NCBI GenBank assembly: GCA_030323885.1
Contig: CM059190.1
Location: 89,743,989 to 89,807,988 of the forward strand
Source of the DNA: Branchipolynoe longqiensis
Taxonomy: Eukaryota > Annelida > Polychaeta > Phyllodocida > Polynoidae
DNA length: 64,000 bases
Reading direction: 5' to 3'
The notes below the pieces were generated by a model that did no database searches, had not been told where the DNA came from, and saw only the letters and a program-made list of their open reading frames with translations. The stretch's first letter is position 1. Every line of letters starts with the position of its first letter. Of the stretch, positions 11,281 through 56,657 are shown piece by piece. The position numbers and the translations under genes are program-made.

Positions 11281-11780
11281 TGTTGTGGTCTGCATTGCCC
11301 TCTCAGGTAAAGGGGCTGTCAGTGTCACATTATGACGCATCGCGCCGACGTATGTGATTTTTGGCCGCTACGTCGGGATACGTCGTTATGCATTACGCGT
11401 GCATTAGGCGCTCATTGGTGTATGTCAACATTCGTCGGGATACGGCGTCGCACGTCAAGGGGTCAGCAAAGTTTTGTGCATGCCCAAAACTTTCCGTGAG
11501 CGTAATGCGAGCATTTTTCGCCATGAGGTACGTTAGCCATACGTTGGCCATACGCTATGCATACAGTATGTATACATCCAACTTTGCCCCCCATGCCGAA
11601 AAGTTAGACGCTTCTCGACATAAAAAAAGTGATTTTACACGTTGGACGCACGCTTGCGAGATGCGTCGTAATGTGACAGGGCCTTAAGTAGCCACATGGA
11701 CGGGCAGGCATGGATCGGGTGACTGCATTAGGGAGTTTAGGTGGTGTAATGGTTAGCTGTCAGGTAGTGAATTTAAAATG
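11281..11780 (+). mobile_element. TRIM LTR fragment split by a MITE
   Basis: 11281-11310 matches the LTR start (TGTGGTCTGCATTGCCCTCT). 11685-11780 resumes the LTR (CCACATGGACGGGCAGGCAT, then box A GGTGGTGTAATGGTTAGC) and decays before box B. The MITE 11311-11684 lies between. Confidence 0.7.
11311..11684. mobile_element. Harbinger-like MITE, 374 bp
   Basis: Terminal inverted repeats AGGGGCTGTCAGTGTCACAT and, from the other end, AGGCCCTGTCACATTACGAC. The 3-bp duplication TAA at 11308-11310 and 11685-11687 fits the PIF/Harbinger superfamily. No transposase. Confidence 0.75.
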
Positions 11781-13767: not shown

Positions 13768-14035
13768 CGTCATTTAGTGCTTACAATTACATACATACAT
13801 GCAATGCACTATACACACATAGTAGGTTCAACAACCATACAGGGTGTAGCTTGTACAGGATCATGGTCATGGCAACCAGTGTCGTGGGGGGGGGGTGAAA
13901 ATGGGAAATATTGTGCCTAGATTCCTGGCCAGAGTGCTAACCATTACACCCCCTGGGCTCCCTGATGTCACCACCCTACCTATGCCTACCTGTCTATGTG
14001 GCTCCTTGCCTGAGAGGTCAGTGCAGACTACTACA
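13768..14035 (-). mobile_element. TRIM element, partial (internal part plus one LTR)
   Basis: Reverse orientation. 13768-13879 is the internal region up to the primer-binding side (GGCAACCAG, the complement of CTGGTTGCC). 13880-14035 is an LTR with a deletion inside the tRNA-like part. The other LTR is missing. Confidence 0.75.
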
Positions 14036-26906: not shown

Positions 26907-28390
26907 CACCGGGCGCAGTGGCCGAATCGGTAGAGCGCAGGCCTCCCATGTGGGAAATCGGGAGTTAAATTCCCGGTTGAGTCAAAGACTCAAAGCAATG
27001 ACTTACAAAATTCGATACTTTTCACTTCCTGGCTTGGTGCTTAGCATTAATATTGTAGTGGTCTGCACTGACCTCTCAGGCAAGTAACCACATAGACAGG
27101 TAGGCGTGGGGAGTGTATTGATATCAGGGAGCCTAGGTGGTGTAATGGTTAGCACACTGGCCCGGAATGCAAAGAGATGTGGGTTCGAGTCCCGCTCTAG
27201 GCACAGTATTTCCCATTTTCATCACCCCCACGACACTGGTTGCCGTGATCAGGATCCTGTACAAGCTTTGCGCTGTATGGTTGTTGAACCTACCCTGTGT
27301 ATGTATGTGTTAGTGCATTGCCTGTATGTATGTAATTGTAAGCATTACAAGACTTACAATTCCAGGGGGACGAGTGTAGTGGTCTGCACTGACCTCTCAG
27401 GCAAGTAACCACATTGACAGGTAGGCGTGGGGAGTGTATTGATATCAGGGAGCCTAGGTGGTGTAATGGTTAGCACACTGGCCCGAATGCAAAGAGATGT
27501 GGGTTCGAGTCCCGCTCTAGGCGCAGTATTTCCCATTTTCATCACCCCCACGACACTGGTTGCCGTGATCAGGATCCTGTACAAGCTTTGCGCTGTATGG
27601 TTGTTGAACCTACCCTGTGTATGTATGTGTTAGTGCATTGCCTGTATGTATGTAATTGTAAGCATTACAAGACTTACAATTCCAGGGGGACGAGTGTAGT
27701 GGTCTGCACTGACCTCTCAGGCAAGTAACCACATAGACAGGTAGGCGTGGGGAGTGTATTGATATCAGGGTGCCTAGGTGGTGTAATGGTTAGCACACTG
27801 GCCCGGAATGCAAAGAGATGTGGGTTCGAGTCCCGCTCTAGGCGCAGTATTTCCCATTTTCATCACCCCCACGACACTGGTTGCCGTGACCATGATACTG
27901 TACAAGCTATGCGCTGTATGGTTGTTGAACCTACCCTGTGTATGTATGTGTTAGTGCATTGCCTGTATGTATGTAATTGTAAGCATTAAAAGACTTACAA
28001 TTCCAGGGGGACGAGTGTATTGGTCTGCACTGACCTCTCAGGCAAGTAACCACATAGACAGGTAGGCGTGGGTAGTGTGGTGATATCTGGAAGCCTAGGT
28101 GGTGTAATGCTTAGCACACTGGCCCAGAAGGCAAAGAGATGTGGGTTCGAGTCCCGCTCTAGGCACAATATTTCCAATTTTCATCACCCCCACGACAATA
28201 GGATAGGGCGAGGACTGGTTATCTCAGTGTCAGGATAATGTGACTGAGTGGGATATCAGGTTATGATCCTGGTGGGCTGATTTCCCAGTGGGGCAGCACT
28301 ATAAAGTCGCCATGAGTGCACACTGTTACAAATCAGTACCCATCCTGATATGACCTTAGATGTTAGTGGGATGTAAACCTCCAACAACCA
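26907..28390 (+). mobile_element. tRNA-derived SINE split by a TRIM array
   Basis: The 5' part is 26907-27053 (GCAGTGGCCGAATCGGTAGA to CTTAGCATTAAT) and the 3' part 28198-28390 (AGGATAGGGCGAGGACTGG to CCAACAACCAACTA). Joined, they give one SINE with no loss at the junction. Confidence 0.9.
27054..28197 (+). mobile_element. TRIM tandem array, four LTRs and three internal segments
   Basis: LTRs: 27054-27235, 27375-27555, 27695-27876 and 28016-28197 (181-182 bp each). Internal segments: 27236-27374, 27556-27694 and 27877-28015 (139 bp each). LTRs start TGTAGTGGTCTGCACTGACC and end CACCCCCACGACA. Each internal segment begins C-TGGTTGCCGTGATCAGG, a primer-binding-site position, and ends AGGGGGACGAG, a purine-rich tract. 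Inside every LTR lies a tRNA-like sequence with box A GTGGTGTAATGGTTAGCAC and box B GGGTTCGAGTCCCG. The array is inserted in a SINE; flanks read ATAT and ATAG, one mismatch from a 4-bp duplication. There is no open reading frame of significance. The TRIM assignment rests on architecture; a tRNA-derived tandem SINE is the alternative. Confidence 0.8.
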
Positions 28391-33750: not shown

Positions 33751-34426
33751 AATGCAGAGTGCCAGGCTAGGAAGTGACATGTATCAATTTTGGTTTGACT
33801 GGACCGGGAACCAAACTCCTGACCTTCTGCATGTGAGACCCGCGCTTTGTCGATTATGCCACTGCACATGGTGTGAAAATTAGTGGGGATATTGGATCTG
33901 TTCGGAAAGGATTGTAATCCGCTAACCAAACCTTGGCTAATATCAATCACCAATCAGACTGCATGTTATAAAATAAGTCGGGGTCAGTCCTCTGATTCAA
34001 TACTGTTAATATAAGAACCCTTAATCCATTTGACTTAATTCTTACTGATGGCAACTTTATTGGAATTGCTGGAACTTCTGGCACTGACTCAACCCGTGTG
34101 AAAGGCTTTGGATGGTGGTGTTATGAGGGTGATTAAAATGGGAAATATTGCGCCTATAGAAGGATTCGAACCCACAACTCTTGAATTCTGAGCCAGTGTG
34201 CTAACCATTACACATCCTAGGCTCCCAGATGGCACCACCCTACCCATGCCTACCTGAGTACCTGTCTGTACCTACCTGAGAGCTCAGTGCAGACTACTAG
34301 ACTCGCCCCCCTGCAATTGTAAGTCTTTGGTATTGTAAATCTTTTAGATGTTTTACATCCATAAATTGTTTTAATGCTTACAATAAACAGGCAATGCACA
34401 TACATACTTACTTAATACATACCTAC

Positions 34427-34473
<47 letters not shown>

Positions 34474-34511
34474 CATACATACTTACTTACATACATACAT
34501 ACATACTTACA

Positions 34512-34878
34512 TGTTGTGAGCGCAGGCAACGAGGATAATAGAGGGCGGATACAGCATTTTATTCATGAACACAACCGTTATATAATGAATTACCGTATCT
34601 GACTCGGCAAGGTACCCTACCGAGTTAAATGTGAAAATAAAATAGTCAAATAATCAAAAAATCAACAAAAAATCGGCGAAGCCAGTGGTTCGAGCAACGA
34701 CCGGGGTGGAAGTGGGGCTTGGTCTGGGACCGGAAGGGCGAAGTAGGGAGGCACCGGGGCGCCACCTGATGGATTCGAACCCAAGCATTAGTTCCAATTC
34801 AAACAGTACTACCCGTCAACATCAGGGGGGTCACTGCGCTCCAACTACACCGGCATATCCAAGATATACGCGTGTACA
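34512..34878 (-). mobile_element. Possible solo LTR nested in the TRIM
   Basis: The minus-strand sequence starts TGTACACGCG and ends GCGCTCACAACA, with GAATAAAATGC about 50 bp before the end. TACA flanks both sides, but this lies in CATA repeats and so is weak. A box-B-like GGGTTCGAATCC is present on the minus strand. Only one copy is seen. Confidence 0.4.
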
Positions 34879-35136
34879 TACATACATACATACATACATA
34901 CATACATACATACATACATACATACATACATACATACATACATACACACACACATACATACATACATACATACACACATACACACTTACACACATACATA
35001 CATACACACGTACACACATACACACATACACACATACACACATACACATACACACATACACATACATACATACACACATACATACACACATACACACACA
35101 TACACACATACACACACATACACACATACACACACA
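34866..35136. repeat. (CATA)n and CACATA array
   Basis: Pure CATA followed by mixed ACACATACAC units. It belongs to the expanded internal region of the surrounding TRIM. Confidence 0.95.
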
Positions 35137-35383
35137 GAGGGTAGATTCAACAACCATACAGTGCGTAGCTTGTATGGGATCCAGGTCATGTCAACCAGTG
35201 TCATAAGGGTGATGAACATTGGAAATATTGCACCTAGGACAGAATTTGAACCAGCACATCTAGCATTGGAGGCTAGTGCGCTAACCATTACACCACCTAG
35301 GCTCCCTGATGTCACCACCGTATCCATGCCTACCTGTCTAGGCGGCTCCTTGCCTGAGAGGTCAGTGCAGCCTACTACAGTGG

Positions 35384-38467: not shown

Positions 38468-38779
38468 GGCAGTGGTTTACAACTCTGCAGGGCAGGGGCG
38501 TCAAACTCCTTGAGGTATTGCAATACCTGCATACCTATCTGCTGATCGACATAGTATAAGCAAAATCATACACTTTGGTGGTTTTGTTTCTTTGTATACT
38601 GAAAAATTAGGCAAAAATGAAGTGCCAAAAGCGTGCCCAATTTATGACACGCTGAATGGTGTGTTAAGCACATTGCAATTACATATAAAGAAATGCTATG
38701 ATTTGGGATAAGTGCATTAGTAAACACTCTGTAAGACTTGTTTCTATTATTTAGGATACAAATTATGCCTTCTCTCTTG
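38468..38779. other. No recognised feature
   Basis: Unique AT-rich sequence. Confidence 0.45.
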
Positions 38780-38783
38780 ATAT

Positions 38784-39286
38784 TGTAGTGGTCTGCACTG
38801 ACCTCTCAGGCAAGTAACCACATAGACAGGTAGGCGTGGGGAGCGTGTTGATATCAGGGAGCCTAGGTGGTGTAATGGTTAGCACACTGGCCCGGAATGC
38901 AAAGAGATGTGGGTTCGAGTCCCGCTCTAGGCGCAGTATTTCCCATTTTCATCACCCCCACGACACTGGTTGCCGTGATCAGGATCCTGTACAAGCTTTG
39001 CGCTGTATGGTTGTTGAACCTACCCTGTGTATGTATGTGTTAGTGCATTGCCTGTATGTATGTAATTGTAAGCATTACAAGACTTACAATTCCAGGGGGA
39101 CGAGTGTAGTGGTCTGCACTGACCTCTCAGGCAAGTAACCACATAGACAGGTAGGCGTGGGGAGTGTGTTGATATCAGGGAGCCTAGGTGGTGTAATGGT
39201 TAGCACACTGGCCCGGAATGCAAAGAGATGTGGGTTCGAGTCCCGCTCTAGGCACAATATTTCCCATTTTCATCACCCCCATGACA
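38784..39286 (+). mobile_element. TRIM element, complete two-LTR copy, TSD ATAT
   Basis: LTRs 38784-38965 and 39105-39286 (182 bp each, about four differences). Internal 38966-39104 (139 bp) with TGGTTGCCGTGATCAGG one base after the 5' LTR and AGGGGGACGAG directly before the 3' LTR. ATAT at 38780-38783 and 39287-39290. The tRNA-like core of the first LTR is 38861-38932 (72 nt): seven acceptor pairs (GCCTAGG with TCTAGGC), a paired D arm (GTGT/GCAC) and a paired T arm (GTGGG-TTCGAGT-CCCGC). The anticodon stem does not pair. No protein is encoded, so mobilisation would need another element's enzymes. This is the type copy of the family in this window. Confidence 0.85.
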
Positions 39287-39290
39287 ATAT

Positions 39291-39820
39291 CTATTAAATT
39301 ATTGAGACATTAAACTTGTTGTAACGGTCATTACACTTCTTCATGTCCACTTTGAAGAGAAACTTTCAAAATTGCTTTTTACTGGCAGAAGATGTGCGGG
39401 GAACTATTTGTAAACACTATTGTCAGCAGGGACTCCTCAGAAGTGCACTCATACAATTTTTTTAGATTAACATTGCCAATATAATCATATTTTATAAGAT
39501 TAAAATGTGTTTAATTTGAGTGTGGTGTCCATTGAAACGACAGCACATAAGAAATAATCAGTAATTTCCTGCTAGCTCCTACCAGCCTAGTTCCATGACC
39601 CCTTGCAAAAAAAGTGAGTGGGTCAACTATCTTTTTTCCCTCAAAATATGTTGTGGAGGGATTATGTATTTAACTTGTGTCATTAGGGCGTCATTTGTAG
39701 AAAGTTTATTTTTAACCCACCATGTCACATATTTGAACCACATTTTCCGAGAACAACCCATATACAGTCTATATATGTGTATATATTTGTATACAATTGT
39801 TGTTCTTATCTCCTCCTCAG
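39291..39820. other. Presumed ferlin intron, unassigned sequence
   Basis: No feature recognised except the pyrimidine-rich end (CTTATCTCCTCCTCAG) serving the exon at 39821. Confidence 0.5.
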
Positions 39821-46205: not shown

Positions 46206-46208
46206 CTG

Positions 46209-47748
46209 TTGATTGCTAGGACGTAAAACCCCAATATACCTTTCAGTCATTCAGTTCTTTGCCATAGCCGTAGATGTTGATTGCTAGGACGTAAAACCCC
46301 AATAAACCTTTCACTCATTCCGTTCTTTGCCATGACCTGAGATCTTGATTGCTAGGACGTAAAACCCCAATAAACCTTTCAGTCATTCAGTTCTTTGCCA
46401 TAACCGTAGATGTTGATTGCTAGGACGTAAAACCCCAATAAACCTTTCAGTCATTCAGTTCTTTGCCATAACCTTAGATGTTGATTGCTAGGACGTAAAA
46501 CCCCAATAAACCTTTCAGTCATTCAGTTCTTTGCCATGACCTTAGATGTTGATTGCTAGGAAGTAAAACCCCAATAAACCTTTCAGTCATTCAGTTCTTT
46601 GCCATAACCTTAGATGTTGATTGCTAGGACGTAAAACCCCAATATACCTTTCAGTCATTCAGTTCTTTGCCATAACCGTAGATGTTGATTGCTAGGACGT
46701 AAAACCCCAATAAACCTTTCAGTCATTCAGTTCTTTGCCATAACCTTAGATGTTGATTGCTAGGATGTAAAACCCCAATAAACCTTTCACTTATTCAGTT
46801 CTTTGCCATGACCTTAGATGTTGATTGCTAGGATGTAAAACCCCAATAAACCTTTCAGTCATTCAGTTCTTTGCCATGACCTTAGATCTTGATTGCTAGG
46901 ATGTAAAACCCCAATAAACCTTTCAGTCATTCAGTTCTTTGCCATAACCTTAGATGTTGATTGCTAGGACGTAAAACCCCAATATACCTTTCAGTCATTC
47001 AGTTCTTTGCCATAACCGTAGATGTTGATTGCTAGGACGTAAAACCCCAATAAACCTTTGACTCATTCCGTTCTTTGCCATGACCTTAGATGTTGATTGC
47101 TAGGACGTAAAACCCCAATAAACCTTTCACTCATTCCGTTCTTTGCCATGACCTTAGATGTTGATTGCTAGGATGTAAAACCCCAATAAACCTTTCAGTC
47201 ATTCAGTTCTTTGCCATAACCGTAGATGTTGATTGCTAGGACGTAAAACCCCAATAAACCTTTCACTCATTCCGTTCTTTGCCATGACCTTAGATGTTGA
47301 TTGCTAGGACGTAAAACCCCAATAAACCTTTCAGTCATTCAGTTCTTTGCCATAACCGTAGATGTTGATTGCTAGGACGTAAAACCCCAATAAACCTTTC
47401 AGTCATTCAGTTCTTTGCCATGACCTTAGATGTTGATTGCTAGGATGTAAAACCCCAATAAACCTTTCAGTCATTCAGTTCTTTGCCATAACCTTAGATA
47501 TTGATTGCTAGGATGTAAAACCCCAATATACCTTTCAGTCATTCAGTTCTTTGCCATAACCTTAGATGTTGATTGCTAGGACGTAAAACCCCAATAAACC
47601 TTTCAGTCATTCAGTTCTTTGCCATAACCTTAGATGTTGATTGCTAGGACGTAAAACCCCAATAAACCTTTCACTTATTCAGTTCTTTGCCATGACCTTA
47701 GATCTTGATTGCTAGGACGTAAAACCCCAATAAACCTGTAACTCATTC
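46209..47748 (+). repeat. 68-bp satellite related to the SINE 3' tail
   Basis: About 22-23 units of 68 bp, each with TTGATTGCTAGGACGTAAAA, CCCCAATAAACCTTTCAGTC and ATTCAGTTCTTTGCCATRAC, ending CNTAGATG. The stretch CCTTAGATGTTG...GCTAGGACGTAAAAC equals the end of the SINE body except for an inserted ATT. Variants (AATATACC, GTCATTC or CTCATTCC, CGTAG or CTTAG) recur at intervals, suggesting amplification of multi-unit blocks. It follows the 22-bp array almost directly. Confidence 0.95.
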
Positions 47749-47764
47749 GGTTATCTGCTGCAAG

Positions 47765-53885: not shown

Positions 53886-54750
53886 TGTCATGGGGGGGTG
53901 ATGAAAATCGGAAATATTGCGCCTAGAGCGAGACTCGAACCCACATCTCTTTGCATTCCGGGCTAGTGTGCTAACCATTACACCACCTAGGCTCCCTGAT
54001 ATCAACACACTACCCATGCCTACCTGTCTATGTGGTTACTTGCCTGAGAGGTCAGTGCAGACCACTACACTCGTCCCCCTGGAATTGTAAGTCTTTTAAA
54101 GCTACATTGTCCGATGAAGCATCAAATTTTCAAAACAAAAATACTCACCTAGATTTCATTCTACACATCTAACTTAGATATTGGTACACTTATTAAACAT
54201 CTGTTGCCACATAGATGGGAATACTGAGTCAATTTAACAGAACTTGTTACTGTATCAGCCTATGGTGTTAGACTTTTGGCGTGCTTGTCAAAATCAATTT
54301 AGGATGTTTGCACTTCAGATATCTCAAAAGTTGGCCATTTAAAATGAAAGTTACTTCAAACTAAAGTAAGGTAGGTTATAACAATCTATTTAATATATTT
54401 ATCTCAGAAAAATGGCAGAAATTCAAAACCATCGGACTATGCAACTTTAAATGGTCATTTAATGCTTACAATTACATACATACAGGAAATGCACTTAGAT
54501 ACATACACTGTGTAGGTTCAACAGCCATACAGCGCTTAGCTTGTACAGGATCATGGTCATGGCTCCAGTGTCATCGGGGTGATGAAAATGGGAAATATTG
54601 CGCCTAGAGCGAGACTCGAACCCACATCTCTTTGCATTCAGGGCTAGTGTGCTAACCATTACATCACCTAGGCTCCCTGATATCAACACACTACCCATGC
54701 CTACCTGTCTATGTAGTTACTTGCCTGAGAGGTCAGTGTAGCCTACTACA
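53886..54750 (-). mobile_element. TRIM element interrupted by a MITE, TSD ATAT
   Basis: Reverse orientation. LTRs at 53886-54069 and 54569-54750. ATAT at 53882-53885 and 54751-54754. The internal segment is split by the TTAA MITE 54100-54446. Both LTRs keep box A and box B. The primer-binding position reads TGGAGCCATGACC here rather than TGGTTGCCGTGATC. Confidence 0.85.
54100..54446 (+). mobile_element. TTAA-type MITE, full length, nested in TRIM
   Basis: AGCTACATTGTCCGATG at the left, CCATCGGACTATGCAACT at the right, TTAA at 54096-54099 and 54447-54450. Confidence 0.85.
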
Positions 54751-54844
54751 ATATCTAGATGTTATTCTACATATCTAACTGAGATACTGATGCCCTCATT
54801 AAGCATTTGTTGCCACATAGAAGCGGGATCCTGAGTCAATTTAA

Positions 54845-55191
54845 AGCTGCATAGTCCGATGAAATATCAAATTTTCAAAACCAAACCAATTATCTAGATT
54901 TGATTTTACATATCTAACTTAGATACTGATGCACTTATTAATCATTTGTTTCTGCGTAGAAGGCAATACTGAGTCAATTTAACAGCACCTGTTACTGCAG
55001 AAGTCTATGGTGTCAGAGTTTTAGCAAGCTTGCCAAAACTAATTTTCCATGTTTGCACTGAAAATATCTCAAAAGTTTACCATTTAAAATAAAAGTAACT
55101 TTGAACTAATGTAAAGTAGATACTAGTGATCGATCTAATATATTTATCTCATAAAAAATACAGAAATTCAAAACCATCGGACTATGCAACA
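54845..55191 (+). mobile_element. TTAA-type MITE, full length
   Basis: AGCTGCATAGTCCGATG at the left and CATCGGACTATGCAACA at the right. TTAA at 54841-54844 and 55192-55195. 347 bp, the same length as 54100-54446. Confidence 0.85.
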
Positions 55192-56584: not shown

Positions 56585-56657
56585 TGGAGAACCTGGGCAT
56601 CGATCCCGGTACCTCTCACATGCTAAGCGAGCGCTCTACCATCTGAGCTAGCTCCCC
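56585..56657 (-). tRNA. tRNA-Ala (anticodon AGC)
   Basis: 73 nt on the minus strand. The acceptor stem GGGGAGC pairs with GTTCTCC over seven positions including two G-U pairs. D arm: GCTC-AGATGGTA-GAGC. Anticodon arm: CTCGC-TTAGCAT-GTGAG with AGC at the centre. T arm: CCGGG-ATCGATG-CCCAG with one C-A mismatch. Discriminator A. Box A (TAGCTCAGATGGTAGAGC) and box B (GGGATCGATGCCC) are intact and a T4 terminator follows. No SINE body is attached, which favours a true gene over a SINE head. The T-stem mismatch leaves some doubt about function. Confidence 0.85.

Follow-up and report, generated by a model that had tools for sequence, protein, structure and literature searches.

The closest described systems are the Helenus elements, TRIMs that contain a tRNA-derived sequence in their LTRs. 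According to the naming paper, they occur in fungi, in a plant and in animals of six phyla (Kojima, 2024, PMC10886601). The same text gives animal Helenus elements a 4-bp TSD, reports a length range of 311-1263 bp for Helenus, uses 75% identity over 75% of the length as its clustering threshold, names tRNA-Lys, His, Ile, Pro, Glu or Ser as primers in bivalves, and mentions tandem arrays for one fish family (LTR-11_DR). Isotype disagreement of the tRNA-like unit is reported there for many, not all, Helenus families. Insertion of a SINE into an LTR is proposed as the origin, and a working Pol III promoter is considered not to be concludable without experiments. Kojima (2024) also builds on the comparison with Cassandra, for which multi-element transcripts have been reported, presumably formed by read-through of intervening LTRs (Kalendar, 2020, PMC7215508). 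The term Helenus was repeated in a 2026 meeting report (PMC12859917). The remark of the original prediction that no description of such a family was known does not hold, as the Helenus paper names the class and covers six animal phyla.

In the window (the whole 64-kb stretch of DNA that was analyzed), one element of 503 bp, with LTRs of 182 bp and an interior of 139 bp, served as the reference and is called element A. Its features are:

38784-39286 (+), element A, complete
38780-38783 (no strand), left copy of the TSD, ATAT
38784-38965 (+), left LTR (A1), 178/182 bases the same as in A2, 4 differences
38861-38933 (+), tRNA-like unit of A1, RF00005 score 47.1 bits, box A at LTR position 85 and box B at LTR position 129
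38946-38949 (+), TTTT that may act as a Pol III stop (LTR position 163)
38966-39104 (+), interior of element A, 139 bp
38967-38980 (+), PBS-like stretch TGGTTGCCGTGATC, starting one base 3' of the left LTR, His-like with one extra T
39094-39104 (+), PPT-like purine-rich stretch AGGGGGACGAG, abutting the right LTR, by direct reading
39105-39286 (+), right LTR (A2), 178/182 bases the same as in A1
39182-39254 (+), tRNA-like unit of A2, RF00005 score 48.4 bits
39287-39290 (no strand), right copy of the TSD, ATAT

The direct repeats with TG...CA ends, the interior and the ATAT on both sides, as originally predicted, were confirmed, and the two stretches expected one base past the left repeat and before the right repeat were found at these places. 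Element A is short, has two LTRs and lacks coding capacity (the longest stop-to-stop frame overlapping it has 106 aa), as described for Helenus.

Eleven LTRs and one split fragment were detected in the 64-kb window, distributed over six loci (A-F) and both strands. In addition to element A, the loci are:

27054-28197 (+), locus B, tandem array in which 4 LTRs alternate with 3 interiors, about 321 bp per unit, flanks ATAT and ATAG
53886-54750 (-), locus C, full element whose interior carries a MITE-like insert (about 54104-54453), flanks ATAT and ATAT
34119-35379 (-), locus D, diverged element whose LTRs differ at 42/181 bases, flanks CCAC and CCAC
13769-14035 (-), locus E, LTR deleted through the tRNA-like unit, plus a partial interior
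11281-11776 (+), locus F, LTR fragment interrupted by an insert with inverted ends

All four loci that have both ends (A, B, C and D) share the outer ends TGTAGT...ACA; the right LTR of locus E was not found in the 64-kb window. The 4-bp TSD, which is also a feature of animal Helenus, is exact in three of these four testable loci (ATAT at A and C, CCAC at D; ATAT/ATAG at B). Based on chance alone, two random 4-mers in the window would agree with a probability of 0.0045, and flanks as far apart as those of A, B, C and D with probabilities of 0.0082, 0.0043, 0.0054 and 0.0043, respectively. Neither a poly(A) nor a simple-repeat tail was present at the right ends of loci A, B, C and D. Identical ends, 4-bp duplications and the lack of a tail had been set beforehand as the check on the TRIM boundaries, and within the window they bear the prediction out. 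The left flank is ATAT in three of the four loci, compared to 0.94% of all window positions, which hints at a target preference for ATAT, a matter for which four loci are too few.

The tandem array at locus B combines units of different age. Its interiors 1 and 2 are identical to the interior of element A (0/139 differences) and its interior 3 shows 5 differences. The last LTR is 11-13 aligned positions off from the other three, which mutually differ at 2 and share an A at LTR position 64, found in 0/8 of the other LTRs. Together, these differences indicate that younger duplicated units are combined with an older one in the array, and we infer that a younger copy recombined into an older resident via the LTR, followed by local duplication.

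Several copies have been altered by other sequences. The insert of locus C (54104-54453) is bounded by inverted repeats of the TTTAAAG...CTTTAAA type, and a similar stretch lies just upstream, at about 54830-54900; by reading, the two probably represent a MITE family. Locus F is split by an insert at 11311-11685 with the inverted ends GTGTCACATTATGACGC and GCGTCGTAATGTGACAG, which is MITE-like, again by reading. The interior of locus D is enlarged by (GTAT)n-type tracts and by an insert. This insert (34512-34880, -) is located between GTAT-rich tracts, contains the box-B-like motif GGTTCGAATCC and may be a SINE, judged by reading.

The tRNA-like units of A1 and A2 matched the Rfam model RF00005 with 47.1 and 48.4 bits, respectively (E-values 6.4e-7 and 2.7e-7, with the 64-kb window as search space). 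As these scores are above the gathering score of 29, the segments are no chance matches. Of the 11 LTRs, 10 scored above this threshold (30.9-52.6 bits); only the LTR of locus E, with its deletion, did not. Both box A and box B fit the consensus in place in five of the 11 LTRs (A1, A2, B1, B2 and B3), so a tRNA-derived LTR sequence with boxes A and B, another Helenus feature, is present here as well.

The predicted stems were recovered in A1 and A2 for the acceptor (7/7 pairs), D (4/4) and T (5/5) arms, and the description of the anticodon stem as unpaired was nearly right, as 3/5 pairs can form. The value of 3/5 applies to loci A, B and C, and the anticodon stem is weak in nine of the ten LTRs that retain the unit. 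An old LTR in locus D (D2; 35199-35379, -) has a complete five-pair anticodon stem, CTAGC/GCTAG; a count on the A1 columns gives 2/5 for D2, because D2 is one base shorter there and the pairing is hidden.

The original prediction also spoke of a folded unit. This is borne out insofar as a cloverleaf is compatible with A1 and A2, in addition to the covariance model scores, but the cloverleaf is not their minimum-energy fold and the folding energies are ordinary. Energies were computed for four of the 11 LTRs. Relative to shuffled sequences, A1, A2 and C2 had z-scores of -1.29, -1.21 and -1.15, and 20/200 (A1) and 23/200 (A2) shuffles folded as well. D2 had a z-score of -3.39, equaled by 0/200 shuffles, with a fold that is a long hairpin and no cloverleaf.

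ARAGORN interpreted the units in the LTRs as five tRNA-Ser (GGA), one tRNA-Ser (AGA) and one tRNA-Trp (CCA; in D2), and three of its tRNA gene calls are inside locus B. The anticodon reads Ser, and the long variable arm is absent. Among 17 tRNAs in the form that we assume for them, a panel without Ser, Leu, Tyr and elongator Met, Gln was nearest to A1 and D2. A separate tRNA-Ala (AGC)-like sequence at 56585-56657 (-; 43.1 bits), either a gene or a SINE head, is located outside the element family.

Other structured RNAs were not found by Rfam. At gathering scores, 5S rRNA was absent from the whole window, and up to E = 1 it was absent from the region 38700-39400. Retrozymes carry a hammerhead ribozyme in the LTR. 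In the region 38700-39400, no ribozyme family was detected up to E = 1, and a ribozyme reading of the element was rejected on this basis. Sub-threshold matches in the same region to Plastid-ycf2 (-; 24.8 bits versus a gathering score of 65.7), skipping-rope and snR58 were attributed to chance or to the antisense strand of the tRNA-like unit.

With regard to transcription signals, a TTTT is found at LTR position 162-164 in nine of the ten LTRs with a tRNA-like unit, D2 being the one that lacks it. On the strand of the element, AATAAA, ATTAAA and TATA[AT]A were present in 0/11 LTRs, and ATTAAA occurred in 3/9 interior pieces. Three interiors (A, the third unit of B, and E) were compared for primer binding. 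For A and the third B unit, the PBS best fits what we take to be the human tRNA-His sequence, with a one-base bulge (the extra T), and in locus E tRNA-Glu, likewise as we assume it to read, scored one point better than His. The PBS is damaged in locus C. The window contains 17 matches to the PBS motif with at most 2 mismatches, compared to 1.72 expected. The six exact or one-mismatch matches are all within the element family; of the other 11, two are single and nine belong to a 68-bp tandem repeat. The 68-bp repeat itself covers 46207-47752, with 22.7 copies and 95% matches.

The 106-aa frame, which runs through LTR and interior, matched 54 metagenomic proteins, 18 of which were aligned and 4 read; P0033 and P0034 are, by reading, translations of relatives across an LTR, an interior and an LTR again, in favor of the element reading. 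A search with an ORF derived from the repeat gave 28 metagenomic proteins. LTR pattern scans of viral and prokaryote contig collections yielded nothing, although absence there says little, and translated scans produced 5 pattern stretches in viral contigs and 305 in prokaryote contigs, with 0 relatives in either. Five stretches of element letters had no match in the full-text literature. Of the 47 ORFs with at least 120 aa in the window, 8 were compared with Pfam and gave no family (E-value threshold 0.01), and an autonomous partner was not identified in the 64-kb window.

Together, the above observations make it very probable that the family belongs to the Helenus (TRIMp3) type of non-autonomous LTR retrotransposon. 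The terminal repeats, the common ends, the TSDs, the PBS- and PPT-like stretches and the boxes of A1 and A2 all support the prediction of a TRIM whose LTR contains a tRNA-type Pol III unit. Use of this promoter by Pol III is likely, judging from the sequence.

Pol III would bind the tRNA-type promoter of the left LTR and start near the 5' end of the tRNA-like unit (about LTR position 78). As TTTT is present in both LTRs, the first one has to be read through; a part of the transcripts may run past the left TTTT (LTR position 163) and terminate at the one in the right LTR. The R region would then comprise roughly LTR positions 78-166, leaving only about 16 bases for U5. Proteins would be supplied by an autonomous LTR element, probably of Gypsy type, a cellular tRNA would prime the first strand at the tRNA-His-like site, and the purine tract would prime the second strand. 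Integrase would insert the copy and thereby generate the 4-bp duplication, and recombination between LTRs could give rise to tandem arrays. The tRNA-like unit would act as promoter cargo and not as a working tRNA.

A further elaboration, which we regard as quite doubtful, is that the tRNA-like unit and the following TTTT make up the R region, placing a near-cloverleaf at both RNA ends, and that the weakening of the anticodon stem in loci A, B and C is adaptive, retaining Pol III recruitment and weakening the tRNA processing that would cut the genomic RNA, with the family perhaps stemming from an animal group without reported Helenus.

Alternatively, the family could be a TRIM that is transcribed by Pol II and whose LTR just carries a fossil SINE insertion, so that the tRNA-like segment has no present role. 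We consider this unlikely. It would agree with the origin proposed for Helenus (Kojima, 2024, PMC10886601), with the ordinary fold energies of A1, A2 and C2, and with ATTAAA, the weaker poly(A) signal, in three of nine interior pieces, whereas the LTRs contain neither this signal nor AATAAA or TATA[AT]A (0/11). The copies that are most alike (A1, A2 and B1-B3) have retained the box consensus, and the diverged locus D also has a tRNA-like unit, which suggests that the unit was present through a long active period.

The comparison of alignment columns is relevant for the same question. In the ten LTRs used (E was omitted for its deletion), 8/22 columns were variable in boxes A and B and 41/109 in the LTR flanks (Fisher p = 1.0), so the boxes are no more conserved than the flanks, as would be expected for a fossil insertion. 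For the other parts of the unit, the variable columns numbered 3/14 in the acceptor stem (p = 0.37), 8/17 in the anticodon arm and 8/19 in the remainder. In the same ten LTRs, two-sided pair changes were not observed in any stem, and the covariation score was 0.081 versus 0.085 in shuffles. Paired cells amounted to 88.5%, the same as in column shuffles; the slid versions reached only 31.9-55.8%, a gap that is to be expected when the structure is derived from the same sequences. The original prediction of a retained promoter and end structure alongside lost decoding, taken as a statement on selection, is therefore not demonstrated here, also in view of the fully paired anticodon stem of D2. These results speak against a strong functional claim for the unit, but dead copies mostly record decay: selection in active copies can be neither proven nor disproven from them, and conservation among them says little on selection acting on source copies.

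It is very improbable that the window contains a satellite or a cluster of genuine tRNA genes and no mobile element. The 321-bp tandem array of locus B and the three ARAGORN calls within it would fit such an arrangement, but the six loci are dispersed on both strands, four of them have the same two outer ends and three an exact TSD, and a Ser anticodon without a long variable arm, combined with an anticodon stem that is weak in 9/10 LTRs, is not as expected for genuine tRNA genes. A tRNA-headed SINE or SINE dimer, spread by a LINE and with terminal repeats due to tandem duplication, is hardly credible in spite of the A and B boxes and the array at 27054-28197, because the TG...CA outer ends are identical at 4/4 loci and the 4-bp TSD is exact at 3/4, the tRNA-like unit of element A begins only after 77 bp of LTR, PBS- and PPT-like stretches are properly placed, and neither a small-RNA head at the start, nor a poly(A) or simple-repeat end, nor TSDs of variable length were found.

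For genome annotation, the Helenus-like family carries a warning, as seven of the eight ARAGORN tRNA predictions in the window (6 Ser, 1 Trp) fall inside LTRs of the element.

Among known systems, retrozymes are similar in being small non-autonomous retrotransposons with a structured RNA, but this RNA is a hammerhead ribozyme instead of a tRNA (PMC4918200). The biv-TRIM elements of bivalves are animal TRIMs that also form tandem arrays of terminal repeats and interiors; they differ in that no canonical PBS was identifiable and, in the sections of the paper available to us, no tRNA-like unit is mentioned for the terminal repeats (Satovic, 2019, PMC6934838). The conserved interior segment TGATCCCAAAGGAC given there for biv-TRIM is absent from the window (exact match, both strands). 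Cassandra shares with the present family the TRIM organization, a Pol III promoter in the LTR and tandem LTR-interior arrays, but is a plant element with 5S rRNA sequence in its LTR, in contrast to the tRNA-derived unit here (PMC7215508). The likeness to Helenus (PMC10886601) extends to the tRNA-derived LTR sequence with boxes A and B, the 4-bp TSD and the tandem arrays; the PBS- and PPT-like stretches are candidate counterparts of the Helenus PBS and PPT, and the His-like site may correspond to the use of tRNA-His among the bivalve primers. Differences are the one extra T in this site and the ATAT at three of four left flanks, as opposed to the lack of a noted target preference in the same text. 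Of seven listed Helenus features, three were found here and none was contradicted. Placed by described features and not by comparison of consensus sequences, the family may be a new, or possibly an already listed, Helenus family. It adds an independent example to a class that was named only recently, and several of its generations are present together in the 64 kb.
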